From: Blastococcus colisei
GTDB taxonomy: Bacteria; Actinomycetota; Actinomycetes; Mycobacteriales; Geodermatophilaceae
Reading direction: 5' to 3'
DNA: 64,000 nucleotides
Assembly (NCBI RefSeq): GCF_006717095.1
Contig: NZ_VFQE01000001.1
Location: 806,001 to 870,000 of the forward strand
Shown: piece after piece, positions 944 through 5,159 of the stretch
Position numbering within the stretch: the first letter of the stretch is position 1
Layout of the letters: each line of letters opens with the position of its first letter
Translations under genes and position numbers: made by a program
The notes under the pieces: generated by a model
Databases searched by the model: none
The model's input: only the letters and a program-made list of their open reading frames with translations
What the model was told of the DNA's origin: nothing

Positions 944-1234
944 TCAGAGCCGGCCGCGACCCTGACGGAGCAGCATCATGCCGAGCGCGGCGCCGTCGGC
1001 ACCCAGCGCCGCCTCGAACCGCGCGAGCACCTGCTGCTCACGGGAGAGGTTGAGTCGCGTGCCGCCGCTGGCCGACCGCAGCGCGCCGATCTCCTGCGAG
1101 ATGGCCAGCCGGCGCCGGACGAGCTCGATGATCTCGGCGTCGCACGCGTCGATCGCGGACCGCAGTTCGCCGATGCGCTCGATCTCGGTGCCGGTGACGG
1201 CGACGGGCGCGGAGGAGGCGGTGAGGGCGCTCAT
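944..1234 (-). CDS. aroQ: Chorismate mutase, AroQ type
   Basis: Converts chorismate to prephenate, the branch point to phenylalanine and tyrosine. The 96-residue all-helical protein matches intracellular actinobacterial AroQ mutases such as M. tuberculosis Rv0948c. It has a long first helix (about residues 18-50) containing I-D-x-x-D-x-E-I-I-x-L-V-x-x-R, then the S-x-E-I-G-x-x-R segment with arginines expected in the active site. There is no signal peptide, so it is cytoplasmic. Mycobacterial homologues work in complex with DAHP synthase, which is not encoded here. It is divergent from pcrA, as in M. tuberculosis. The 159 bases in front of the start hold an aromatic leader peptide and an intrinsic terminator, suggesting control by transcription attenuation. 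Confidence 0.9.
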   Translation of the reverse strand: MSALTASSAPVAVTGTEIERIGELRSAIDACDAEIIELVRRRLAISQEIGALRSASGGTRLNLSREQQVLARFEAALGADGAALGMMLLRQGRGRL

Positions 1235-1280
1235 GGGATGTCCTTCGGGTGCTGGTGGCCCGTAGGTCCCCGGAAACGAG

Positions 1281-1313
1281 AAAACGCCCCGGGGCTCTTC
1301 GGGCCCGGGGCGT
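1281..1313 (-). terminator. Intrinsic terminator in the chorismate mutase leader (candidate attenuator)
   Basis: Read on the minus strand, a 10-bp perfect stem (ACGCCCCGGG with its complement, loop of 10) is followed by TTTT, then CTCG and TTT. It sits after the leader peptide stop codon and about 47 bases before the chorismate mutase ATG. It therefore lies inside the transcribed leader, where an attenuator would be expected, rather than downstream of any gene. True T-tracts are rare in this GC-rich window, which makes this one stand out. Confidence 0.7.
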
Positions 1314-1330
1314 CTGTTGCGGCGGAGTGC

Positions 1331-1393
1331 TCAGCCAGCGGTGACGGACACCGGATCCCGGTGACCGTAGTAAAAGCTGACCGTGGCGAGCAC
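1331..1393 (-). CDS. Aromatic leader peptide of the chorismate mutase gene
   Basis: A 20-codon reading frame starts with GTG, carries Ser-Phe-Tyr-Tyr-Gly at codons 6-10, and ends with TGA 18 bases before the terminator stem. Consecutive Phe-Tyr-Tyr codons in a short ORF before a terminator and before chorismate mutase are the classical layout of ribosome-mediated attenuation sensing charged tRNA-Phe and tRNA-Tyr. A -10-like CAGACT ends seven bases before the GTG, so the peptide would be translated from a leaderless transcript. An aromatic leader peptide (AroR) is known before the DAHP synthase gene in Corynebacterium glutamicum; similarity to it is from memory. The alternative antiterminator fold has not been computed. 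Confidence 0.65.
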   Translation of the reverse strand: MLATVSFYYGHRDPVSVTAG

Positions 1394-1400
1394 GGACCGG

Positions 1401-1406
1401 AGTCTG
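1401..1406 (-). promoter_or_regulatory. -10 box for the chorismate mutase leader transcript
   Basis: CAGACT on the minus strand, seven bases before the leader-peptide GTG at 1393, has the same geometry as the other leaderless promoters in the window. No clear -35 box is visible. Confidence 0.45.
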
Positions 1407-1494
1407 CCACAGGTCCGACGCGATCGCCACGATCGGCTCGTGGGACGGGTGGGGTGGACGTGGACGGCGCCCGGGGAGTGTCCCCCGTCCGGCT

Positions 1495-1509: not shown

Positions 1510-1572
1510 ATGAACCCACCCCACGAAAACGCTCCGCTGGCGCTCCACGTCTCCGCGGGGACCCCGGGATGA
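1510..1572 (+). CDS. Upstream ORF (20 codons) overlapping the pcrA start
   Basis: A short ORF beginning MNPPHENAP and ending G-T-P-G-stop. Its TGA overlaps the pcrA ATG as ATGA, the arrangement used for translational coupling. A TANNNT -10 box places the transcription start at or just before its ATG, and no strong ribosome binding site precedes the pcrA ATG, so pcrA translation may depend on termination-reinitiation from this ORF. No composition bias (such as runs of one amino acid) suggests amino-acid sensing. It could also be a chance ORF. Confidence 0.5.
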   Translation: MNPPHENAPLALHVSAGTPG

Positions 1573-3881
1573 GCGTCCAGGAGGCCCTGACCGGGCCGCA
1601 GCAGTCCCTGCCCGGAACCGAGGCCCTCCAGCGCACCGCCAAGGGCCCCGTCGGGCGCGAGCTCGAGCGGATGCTCGCCGGTCTCAACGGCCCACAGCGC
1701 CAGGCCGTCGTCCACGAGGGCGGGCCGCTGCTCATCGTGGCCGGCGCGGGCTCGGGGAAGACCCGGGTGCTCGCGCACCGGATCGCCTACCTGCTGGGTG
1801 CGCGCCACACCCAGCCCGGCGAGATCCTCGCGATCACGTTCACGAACAAGGCCGCCGGCGAGATGAAGGAGCGGGTGGCCCACCTCGTCGGGCCGCGCGC
1901 CCGCGCGATGTGGGTCTCGACGTTCCACTCCATGTGCGTGCGCATCCTCCGCGCCGAGGCCGCCAAGCTGGGCCTGAAATCGTCGTTCACGATCTACGAC
2001 CAGGGCGACTCGGTCCGGCTGATGACGATGGTCGCCCGCGACCTCGACCTCGACGCCAAGCGCTACCCGGGCCGCAGCCTCGCCGCGCAGGTGTCCAACC
2101 TCAAGAACGAGCTGGTCGACGAGGAGGGCTACGTCCCGCAGACGGCGCCGGAGAAGGTGCTCGCGGAGGCCTACAAGCTCTACCAGCAGCGGCTGCGCCA
2201 GGCGCACGCCATGGATTTCGACGATCTGATCATGAACACCGTGCACCTGCTGCAGGCGTTCCCCGACGTCGCCGAGCACTACCGGCGCCGCTTCCGGCAC
2301 GTGCTGGTCGACGAGTACCAAGACACGAACCACGCCCAGTACATGCTGGTCCGCGAGCTGGTGGGCGACGGCACGGGCCCGGTGCCCATGGCCGAGCTGT
2401 GCGTCGTCGGCGACGCCGACCAGTCGATCTACGCGTTCCGCGGCGCGACGATCCGCAACATCGACGAGTTCGAGCGCGACTACCCGCAGGCCACCACGAT
2501 CCTGCTGGAGCAGAACTACCGCTCCACCCAGCGGATCCTGAAGGCCGCGAACCAGGTCATCTCGCGCAACACCGGTCGCCGTCCCAAGAACCTGTGGACC
2601 GACTCCGGCGACGGCGAGCTGATCGAGGGCTACGTCGCCGACAACGAGCACGACGAGGCCGCCTGGGTCGCCGAGCAGATCGACGCCCTGGTCGACGAGG
2701 GCGTGGCCCAGCCGAAGGACATCGCAGTCTTCTACCGGACCAACAACGCCTCCCGTGTCTTCGAGGAGGTCTTCATCCGGGTCGGCATGCCCTACAAGGT
2801 CGTCGGCGGGGTGCGCTTCTACGAGCGCAAGGAGGTCCGCGACGCGCTGGCCTACCTGAAGGTGGTCGCCAACCCGACCGACATCGTCAGCCTGCGCCGG
2901 GTCATCAACACCCCGAAGCGCGGCATCGGCGACCGGGCGGAGGCATGCATCGAGAACTTCGCCGACCGCGAGCGGATCCCGTTCGCCTCGGCGCTGCGCC
3001 GGTGTTCGGAGGTGGGTGAGCTCGCCACCCGCTCGCTGAAGTCGGTCCAGGAGTTCGTCGCGCTGCTGGAGGAGTTCGAGCAGCTGGTCGAGACCGGTTC
3101 GGGGCCCGCCGCGCTGCTGGAGAGCATCCTCGACCGCACCGGCTACCTCGCCGAGCTGCAGGCGAGCACCGACCCCCAGGACGAGGGGCGGGTCGACAAC
3201 CTCAACGAGCTGATCTCGGTGGCCGCGGAGTTCGAGGCAGCCAACCCGAACGGGACGGTCACCGACTTCCTGGAGCAGGTGTCGCTGGTGGCCGACGCCG
3301 ACCAGATCCCGGTCACCGGCGACGACGCCGGCGTCGTCACGATGATGACGCTGCACACGGCCAAGGGCCTGGAGTTCCCGGTCGTCTTCCTGACGGCGCT
3401 GGAGGACGGCGTCTTCCCGCACCTGCGCGCCCTGGGGGACCCGCGAGAGCTGGAGGAGGAGCGGCGGCTGGCCTACGTGGGCATCACCCGCGCCCAGCAG
3501 AGGCTGTTCCTCTCACGGGCCCAGGTGCGCACCAGCTGGGGGCAGCCGTCGTACAACCCGCCGTCCCGGTTCCTGGACGAGGTCCCGCCGGACACGGTGC
3601 ACTGGGCCCGGCTCGAGCCGGCCCCGGCGTCGACCGGCTACTCGTCGGCCCAGTCGCGGGTCGCCGCGACCGGTCTGTCGACCGGTGGCCTGCGCGGTGG
3701 CGCGGGCAACCGGGCGGTCATCGCGGTGGACGTCGGCGACCGGGTCAGCCATGACGCGTTCGGCCTGGGCACCGTGGTCGAGGTGACCGGCGTGGGCGAC
3801 AAGGCCCAGGCCACGGTCGACTTCGGCTCCGGCGGCACCAAGCGCCTGGTCCTCAGGTACGCCCCCCTCGTGAAGCTCTGA
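1569..3881 (+). CDS. pcrA: ATP-dependent DNA helicase PcrA/UvrD1 (superfamily 1)
   Basis: A 3'-5' DNA helicase for repair, replication restart and removal of blocked complexes. Its 770 residues match UvrD1/PcrA in length and domain order. It has the Q motif and Walker A (GAGSGKT, about residues 57-63), motif Ia (TFTNKAAGEMKERV), Walker B/motif II (VDEYQDTN), motif III (GDADQSIYAFRG), motif IV (QNYRST), motif V (TLHTAKGLEFP) and motif VI (AYVGITRAQ). It ends in a small SH3/Tudor-like domain (about residues 720-770) that in PcrA/UvrD homologues contacts RNA polymerase. The start is the ATG overlapping the upstream ORF. The position next to chorismate mutase and the M23 peptidase gene is the same as Rv0949 in M. 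tuberculosis. Confidence 0.96.
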   Translation: MSVQEALTGPQQSLPGTEALQRTAKGPVGRELERMLAGLNGPQRQAVVHEGGPLLIVAGAGSGKTRVLAHRIAYLLGARHTQPGEILAITFTNKAAGEMKERVAHLVGPRARAMWVSTFHSMCVRILRAEAAKLGLKSSFTIYDQGDSVRLMTMVARDLDLDAKRYPGRSLAAQVSNLKNELVDEEGYVPQTAPEKVLAEAYKLYQQRLRQAHAMDFDDLIMNTVHLLQAFPDVAEHYRRRFRHVLVDEYQDTNHAQYMLVRELVGDGTGPVPMAELCVVGDADQSIYAFRGATIRNIDEFERDYPQATTILLEQNYRSTQRILKAANQVISRNTGRRPKNLWTDSGDGELIEGYVADNEHDEAAWVAEQIDALVDEGVAQPKDIAVFYRTNNASRVFEEVFIRVGMPYKVVGGVRFYERKEVRDALAYLKVVANPTDIVSLRRVINTPKRGIGDRAEACIENFADRERIPFASALRRCSEVGELATRSLKSVQEFVALLEEFEQLVETGSGPAALLESILDRTGYLAELQASTDPQDEGRVDNLNELISVAAEFEAANPNGTVTDFLEQVSLVADADQIPVTGDDAGVVTMMTLHTAKGLEFPVVFLTALEDGVFPHLRALGDPRELEEERRLAYVGITRAQQRLFLSRAQVRTSWGQPSYNPPSRFLDEVPPDTVHWARLEPAPASTGYSSAQSRVAATGLSTGGLRGGAGNRAVIAVDVGDRVSHDAFGLGTVVEVTGVGDKAQATVDFGSGGTKRLVLRYAPLVKL

Positions 3882-4833: not shown

Positions 4834-5030
4834 GGCGCACCTTCCCGGACGAGCGCTGCCCTGCCGAGCCGTGTGGCGGCCCGCCGGGGGAGCGGCGGTG
4901 GCTGAGGACGACCGGGTCCGGTCGTCCACCGGTGGTCACCGGCGCCGTGATCGAACCGTAACGATGTGTCATGGCACGGCAAAGCACCGCACGGCACGTG
5001 TCGCGTTGTGTGCGCGGTGTGATGAGGCTC

Positions 5031-5091
5031 GGACGGCAGGACGGCAGGACGGCAGGACGGCAGGACGGCAGGACGGCAGGACGGCAGGACG
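5031..5091. repeat. Perfect 8-bp tandem repeat, about 7.6 copies
   Basis: The unit GGACGGCA is repeated head-to-tail seven times without error plus five more bases. It lies in the 326-base gap between the M23 peptidase start (4833) and the lipase stop (5160), on the upstream side of the M23 gene. No convincing gene overlaps it. Eight is not a multiple of three, so copy changes would shift any overlapping frame. Apart from the repeat I see nothing recognisable in this gap. Confidence 0.9.
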
Positions 5092-5159
5092 CTGGCACGC
5101 GGGTACGACGGAACCGGCATGACCGCGGCCGCGCCTACGGCGACGCGCCCGGGAACGGC

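Follow-up and report, generated by a model that had tools for sequence, protein, structure and literature searches.

A leader with Phe and Tyr codons upstream of chorismate mutase in Geodermatophilaceae and other actinobacteria: a probable transcription attenuator

The pheL leader of Escherichia coli contains Phe codons, is translated from a Shine-Dalgarno start and attenuates transcription according to the charging of Phe-tRNA. Its target is pheA, the gene for chorismate mutase-prephenate dehydratase (PMC11802643), and the likeness to what we propose here is that of a leader peptide attenuating a gene with chorismate mutase (CM) activity. However, pheA encodes a fusion enzyme, whereas our locus encodes a monofunctional CM behind an apparently leaderless leader that contains Phe as well as Tyr codons. 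Among actinobacteria, AroR of Corynebacterium glutamicum is a Phe-Tyr-Phe leader of aroF, the gene for DAHP synthase, and is reported to respond to limitation of Phe and not of Tyr (PMC4046766, PMC11802643); the first-pass annotation of our DNA likewise names AroR as an aromatic leader controlling that enzyme. Set beside the CM leader by description only, AroR is likewise an actinobacterial aromatic leader with attenuation of an aromatic-pathway gene; it controls DAHP synthase, however, and the leader described here precedes CM, so that the AroR/aroF pairing is not the one found.

Leaderless leader peptides are described for the leu, ilv and trp genes of Streptomyces lividans, several of them with a hairpin and U-tract (PMC8079986). 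They serve other pathways than the CM leader, which is probably leaderless as well, and among the eight leaders listed in the available text of that paper (Leu, Trp, Ala, Ile, Met, Thr) there is none for Phe or Tyr. The ilvBNC attenuator of C. glutamicum, which has been probed with mutants and includes an anti-antiterminator as a further element (PMC11857589), and that of ilvB1 in Mycobacterium tuberculosis (PMC13236596) follow the same logic of a leader reading frame with terminator and antiterminator, for branched-chain amino acids instead. Mycobacterial cysteine attenuators have a leaderless short reading frame with codons for the pathway product; they differ in responding to cysteine, and no aromatic leader is among those described in the sections available (PMC4633059, PMC9094748). 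In the accessible part of a 2005 survey of RNA elements at actinobacterial amino-acid genes, no conserved structures are reported before Phe/Tyr operons (PMC1262725). When the leader was compared with Rfam, T-box included, no match reached the gathering threshold and a relaxed threshold gave only scores far below it; nor did we find an account of a CM leader in the literature searched, a scope outside which most subscription journals fell. Attenuation as such is known; the CM leader is broadly distributed.

The window, that is the whole stretch of DNA analysed, comprises 64,000 nt of Blastococcus colisei (NZ_VFQE01000001.1, 806,001-870,000), and all parts of the candidate switch lie on its minus strand (Table 1). 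The first-pass annotation had named a 20-codon GTG reading frame, a -10-like box, a hairpin with T-tract and the ATG of CM, and each of these was recovered in place. The CAGACT box is separated from the leader GTG by a 7-nt spacer, the terminator hairpin spans 1313-1284 with TTTT at 1284-1281, and the 46-nt gap between terminator and CM contains the GAAGGA sequence. The enzyme was identified by NCBIfam models NF005894 and TIGR01808, both over cut-off, and by a Pfam CM_2 match; its nearest solved relative is the intracellular CM Rv0948c of M. tuberculosis (PDB 2qbv, E 1.1e-17). The genome contains a single covariance-model match, at CM, and inspection by eye of about 450 nt upstream of its type II DAHP synthase and prephenate dehydratase genes revealed no leader.

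Table 1. Features of the chorismate mutase locus, in window coordinates
Feature	Position	Strand	Basis
Extended -10 promoter element, predicted (TGG-CAGACT; box CAGACT 1406-1401)	1401..1409	-	Motif recurs in leaders
Leader ORF VLATVSFYYGHRDPVSVTAG, 20 codons, GTG 1393 to TGA 1331	1331..1393	-	Read from sequence
Control codons Phe-Tyr-Tyr (core Phe-x-Tyr)	1367..1375	-	Codon tally, 143 distinct leader ORFs
Hairpin P2 (segments 1:2), from second base of last Tyr codon	1344..1368	-	Fold, alignment and covariation
Predicted antiterminator arm, segment 2 (P2 3' arm and next base)	1343..1354	-	Masked partial-transcript folds; co-adaptation
Predicted antiterminator arm, segment 3 (also terminator 5' arm)	1305..1314	-	Masked folds; co-adaptation
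Intrinsic terminator (segments 3:4) and T-tract	1281..1313	-	-21.5 kcal/mol; covariation
GAAGGA, Shine-Dalgarno-like, for CM	1241..1246	-	Read from sequence
Monofunctional CM, 96 aa, ATG 1234	944..1234	-	NCBIfam, Pfam and PDB matches
UvrD/PcrA-type helicase, divergent	1569..3881	+	ORF list, Pfam

We consider it highly probable that these parts form a ribosome-mediated transcription attenuator that tunes CM to the levels of charged Phe-tRNA and Tyr-tRNA. The leader has codons for the end products, a terminator lies between leader and gene, the pairings are predicted to exclude one another, and the control codons are placed such that a ribosome on them would block segment 1, P2 opening inside the Tyr codon, at its second base. 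On the other side of the balance, the leader of B. colisei offers few control codons, one for Phe and two for Tyr.

Conservation in relatives, the lack of which had been named in advance as a possible refutation, was found for both codons and stems. Parsing of peptides, by a rule that demanded the F..YG motif, succeeded for 176 of 180 leaders; the remaining four comprise two that were misextracted (L195, L213) and two that have FFYG with the start codon beyond the parsed stretch (L124, L128). Among 143 distinct leader reading frames the motif is absent from one. The first-pass annotation had pointed to three codons, F-Y-Y: the Phe and the last Tyr are indeed constant, but the middle codon varies (Y, F, S, A or P in the family; T, L, R or absent elsewhere), and the core is better written Phe-x-Tyr-Gly. 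Phe is encoded by TTT in 103 and by TTC in 39 frames, Tyr by TAC in 117 and by TAT in 25, and synonymous change is thus tolerated. Of the residues in the 129 distinct CM leader peptides, 9.0% are Phe and 9.6% Tyr, and Trp makes up 0.2% (5 residues), so that, by this tally, the two amino acids derived from prephenate both feature and Trp hardly at all.

It could be argued that the Phe and Tyr codons are incidental, and that any slowing of leader translation, by antibiotics or by lack of any amino acid, opens read-through into CM. An upstream reading frame acting as such a general stress switch is known for mycobacterial whiB7 (PMC4128351, PMC13236596). Against this stands that codons for Phe and Tyr are found immediately ahead of P2 across 17 family-level groups, with Trp nearly absent, although both the motif and the 5' end of P2 belonged to the parsing rules, and that the regulated enzyme makes the precursor of exactly Phe and Tyr. 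We regard a general stress switch as very unlikely.

A further possibility is that the peptide itself is the sensor, with nascent Phe-x-Tyr-Gly-His-Arg-x-Pro-Val halting the ribosome on a small molecule, for instance Phe, Tyr or prephenate, and the unchanged RNA switch registering the stall. In Geodermatophilaceae the peptide is conserved well past the Phe/Tyr codons, as an arrest peptide would be. However, its C-terminal part varies between families (GTGSPAAVGRA, GNRPTGCHGRAA, YRSAVPVGI) with the hairpin kept, and in L043 both arms of P2 are altered in concert (CAC to CGC, GTG to GCG) at the price of His to Arg and Val to Ala. Moreover, a frame shifted directly after FFYG with the hairpin kept (L136) speaks against arrest. 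We rejected this reading because what families have in common is the hairpin and not the peptide C-terminus, and would give it only a slim chance. Regarding L136 in its own right, this leader is one base shorter than its relatives, and may be a natural hint that the C-terminal peptide is dispensable.

The start of the leader is marked by a -10-like element. One of CATACT, CAGACT or CACACT occurs in 151 of the 176 leaders, and NANNNT stands 6-7 nt upstream of the start codon in 171, five being without it even by a loose rule. In 66 distinct family sequences the distance from box to start codon is 6 nt (12) or 7 nt (54), and the Phe codon follows the start by 18, 21, 33 or 36 nt (53, 10, 2 and 1 sequences, respectively); the -10 pattern and these four offsets were built into the search rule, which 66/66 sequences satisfied. 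The N-terminal length of the leader varies among relatives by whole codons. This spacing fits a transcript that starts upstream of the hairpin at a leaderless start codon, and the leader reading frame is probably leaderless. A separate promoter closer to CM may also be present.

Folding of the 117-nt leader RNA gave -60.4 kcal/mol (z -4.5 against shuffles). In the free fold of the window's leader, as in a fold obtained from the alignment alone, P2 starts within the Tyr codon, at base 2; the alignment fold recovered P2 and the terminator without either being specified. Measured from the Tyr codon, P2 is 24-26 nt long in 171 of the 176 leaders, its 5' end being imposed by the search. In A4, an alignment built by sequence alone from loci that covariance model R1 had matched, 90.1% of cells pair in P2, and double-sided changes number 22, where shuffles give 9.1 +- 3.1 (1/500 as high); for the terminator the corresponding values are 95.1%, and 22 against 5.7 +- 1.9 (0/500). 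When the partners were slid by 1-3 columns, pairing fell to 27-47% in P2 and 26-63% in the terminator. The search for covarying stems proposed with the original annotation thus found two, both above shuffles. R1 itself includes P2 and the terminator, so that the choice of loci leans to these helices, and sequences beyond the family were likewise gathered with models holding both, which favors them.

A third helix, P1, joining the start and end of the leader reading frame, was left out of the model: 75% of its cells pair and doubly changed pairs are no more numerous than in shuffles (418/500 as high), although doubly changed cells and the covariation score do exceed shuffles. A single leader from a Blastococcus MAG (L011) has a deviating terminator 5' arm (GACGACCCGGTCC) with a poorer match to the 3' arm, and its switch may be weakened.

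The terminator had been described as one of few in the window, and in fact no other intrinsic terminator in the 64 kb satisfies a strict rule that demands 8 or more perfect pairs and a tail with 4 or more T. A simple scan of the first 20 kb, limited to loops of 3-8, missed it, probably on account of the loop of 10 closed by its perfect stem.

The predicted structures correspond to the segments of a classical attenuator, with P2 as 1:2, the antiterminator as 2:3 and the terminator as 3:4. We infer that the transcript starts at or beside the GTG and that the leader is translated without a Shine-Dalgarno step. With Phe and Tyr ample, the ribosome would reach the stop codon, 10 nt beyond P2, and mask the P2 3' arm; the terminator would then form and transcription end before CM. 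With Phe-tRNA or Tyr-tRNA uncharged, the ribosome would stall at the Phe-x-Tyr codons, and its front would mask the P2 5' arm, which starts inside the Tyr codon. A ribosome stalled at a Phe or Tyr codon would have a footprint extending over much of this arm. The freed P2 3' arm could then pair with the terminator 5' arm before the terminator 3' arm exists, giving read-through into CM. The sign of the response would be such that the switch probably raises CM output only on Phe or Tyr shortage.

Computed folds agree with this scheme in part of the time course of transcription. In RNA masked through the P2 5' arm and with the terminator 3' arm unmade, the P2 3' arm pairs with the terminator 5' arm (1343-1354 with 1314-1305), at -15.3 to -23.1 kcal/mol depending on the mask. 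A ribosome at the stop codon precludes this pairing, and the terminator then forms at -24.0. For the full-length RNA, every mask that was applied, including that of the P2 5' arm, leaves the terminator as the minimum-energy structure, and the antiterminator must therefore win kinetically, by forming first. Winning by being first is the usual assumption for such switches.

The topology of the antiterminator is found in 66/66 distinct family leaders. Its energy is no better than that of shuffled sequence (mean z about 0 over these 66 leaders) and was discarded as evidence, and an arm-swap test was used instead. In A4 the paired columns of the antiterminator show little variation: 91.1% of its cells form pairs, the number of doubly changed cells does not exceed that in shuffles (104/500 as high), and the covariation score does so slightly (16/500).

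In the swap test, run in both directions, native arms beat cross-family arms in 16/16 families and in 73 of 84 sequences. No advantage of native arms appeared in four control pairings, namely the terminator arm with either the leader part or the P2 5' arm, and sequence beyond the terminator with either the leader part or the P2 3' arm. An initial one-directional version gave a mean of -18.1 for native against -15.6 for crossed arms (Wilcoxon p 0.0017, 17 families), with native arms better in 70 of 85 sequences and a poor result in groups f2 (2/8) and f8 (5/11). Both versions were capped at 15 distinct arm pairs for each family, which gave 84 of 128 in the two-directional and 85 of 129 in the one-directional test; family f46, whose arm is truncated, was kept in the first version and left out of the second, in which 6 of the 16 families are single sequences. 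One leader (L121) was left out of the swap set, being without a terminator under the rule used. The arms themselves differ by lineage: f16 leaders have an 8-pair helix of CGUAGGUC with GACCUACG, with wobble on one or the other side, those of f15 pair GUGAU with AUCAC or GUGG with CCAC, and in f33 CGCC or UGCC, then A, then UGG, pairs with CCAGGCG. The computation of alternative folds, suggested as a check at the outset, has thus yielded the antiterminator pairing, with predicted arms that are lineage-specific and co-adapted across families.

The same evidence bears on whether there is any switch, or only a hairpin that ends unrelated transcription beside a chance reading frame. Lone hairpins are common, and 13 of the 40 weaker loci at class level are followed by neither CM nor DAHP synthase. 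However, the helicase gene upstream of our locus is divergent, so that no minus-strand gene ends nearby for the terminator to serve and nothing is left to terminate. Furthermore, reading frame, promoter, P2 and terminator are conserved together and the arms co-adapt. An idle hairpin is in our view hardly credible.

Within the family, a leader in open frame precedes CM in 85 of 86 fetched loci, with the Phe-x-Tyr core in all 85; the sequence of the 86th (L046) begins 18 nt before the match and has no upstream. The 86 loci count the window's own genome twice, and some other genomes twice. Named relatives of the window's genome belong mostly to Blastococcus, Geodermatophilus, Modestobacter and Klenkia, and among the 55 named loci the leader stands before CM in 54. 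R1, built from 42 family leaders, matches 109 of 112 family genomes, and the remaining three are the same three in which no CM was found; adjacency of leader and CM was read at fetched loci only, and G019 has them on separate contigs. As judged from these sequences, the leader is as constant a partner of CM in Geodermatophilaceae as a subunit would be.

The first-pass annotation had proposed the attenuator for this actinobacterium. Conserved codons, stems and antiterminator support the attenuator reading, and the element is no peculiarity of the organism but extends over the order and beyond. Of 397 genomes sampled from the order R1 matches 296, which represent 66 of the 85 genera (75 of the 296 are in the family; the matches were read for part of the 296), and in one genus of group f16 it matches 41/41 genomes. 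When 40 fetched loci from family and order were read, CM was downstream in 36; the other four are a CM-like reading frame recognized by eye (L124), a bare terminator (L154), a contig end (L155) and one unassigned locus (L117). A second model, R2, which was built on 45 family and order leaders, matches in 35 of 40 chosen genomes, which is no rate since most were chosen because R1 had matched. R2 also matches in other orders of the class, where the tally of 151/394 is not a count of CM leaders. Reading of 49 loci from two R2 searches placed CM downstream in 47. In genus g19 of f8, with leaders such as VLSPQRRFFYGYRSAVPVGI, one CM (L194) matches Rv0948c at E 8.1e-40, and on the strength of this match and these leaders mycobacteria most likely carry the element. 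Left out were L154 and L155, for the reasons just given, L151, L152 and L156 as repeats of family leaders, L087-L116 as mostly such repeats, and L187, from the same genome as L134; the genome of L195 entered again as L253. The contig end at L155 (G033, contig C170) holds a second copy of the CM leader in a genome that is 76% complete, and may reflect contamination or assembly duplication.

The 40 weaker class-level loci reveal a second version of the element. Type I DAHP synthase follows in 25 of them, CM in 2 and neither gene in 13, several of which are bare terminators. These 25 leaders (L239-L243, L247, L252, L255, L257 and L259-L274; leader near position 401 after orientation), from other actinobacterial families, have the same layout of leader, hairpin and terminator, and PF00793 matches beside the leader in 25/25. 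Trp accompanies Phe and Tyr in 19 of the 25 (MQRNFWRFYGYRP..., MRTAWSFWYGDGP...) against 5 of 129 distinct CM leaders. DAHP synthase serves three aromatic amino acids and CM two, and the codons follow. The 19 Trp-bearing leaders represent three family-level groups, and since 17 of them are from f31 the independent events are few. An association of CM leaders with type II and of DAHP-synthase leaders with type I DAHP synthase was considered and not borne out: all 25 genomes with DAHP-synthase leaders have a type I match and 18 also a type II match (3 only in pieces), while 16 genomes with CM leaders comprise 7 with type II only, 8 with both and 1, incomplete, with neither. It is conceivable, although we would put it at somewhat under an even chance, that a single ancestral module, already present before the actinobacterial orders covered here diverged, controls access to the Phe/Tyr branch and in some lineages is found at DAHP synthase instead, having gained Trp codons there, so that the codons of a micro-peptide track the pathway position of the enzyme. 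Four further loci (L248, L249, L254, L276) contain leaders with Thr codons and a hairpin (L249, MKRAAWTTTPETVPAR) and resemble the thrS leader listed for S. lividans in the available part of PMC8079986.

The M. tuberculosis complex of CM and DAHP synthase is under feedback control by Phe and Tyr (PMC4281200). If our reading is true, the Phe/Tyr branch has, on top of this feedback, a conserved transcriptional control at CM, and a Phe/Tyr-responsive switch would become usable in strain engineering. It predicts short leader transcripts and ribosome footprints in existing streptomycete and mycobacterial transcriptome data. The CM leader would be an RNA family where Rfam is without one, and the CM and DAHP synthase versions together constitute a natural experiment on control codons following enzyme position. 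Elsewhere in the window, at about 5020-5110, overlapping reading frames on both strands encode repeats (VLPSCRPA, GRQDGRTA), that is a short tandem repeat, which stands upstream of the minus-strand reading frame 4929-3985.
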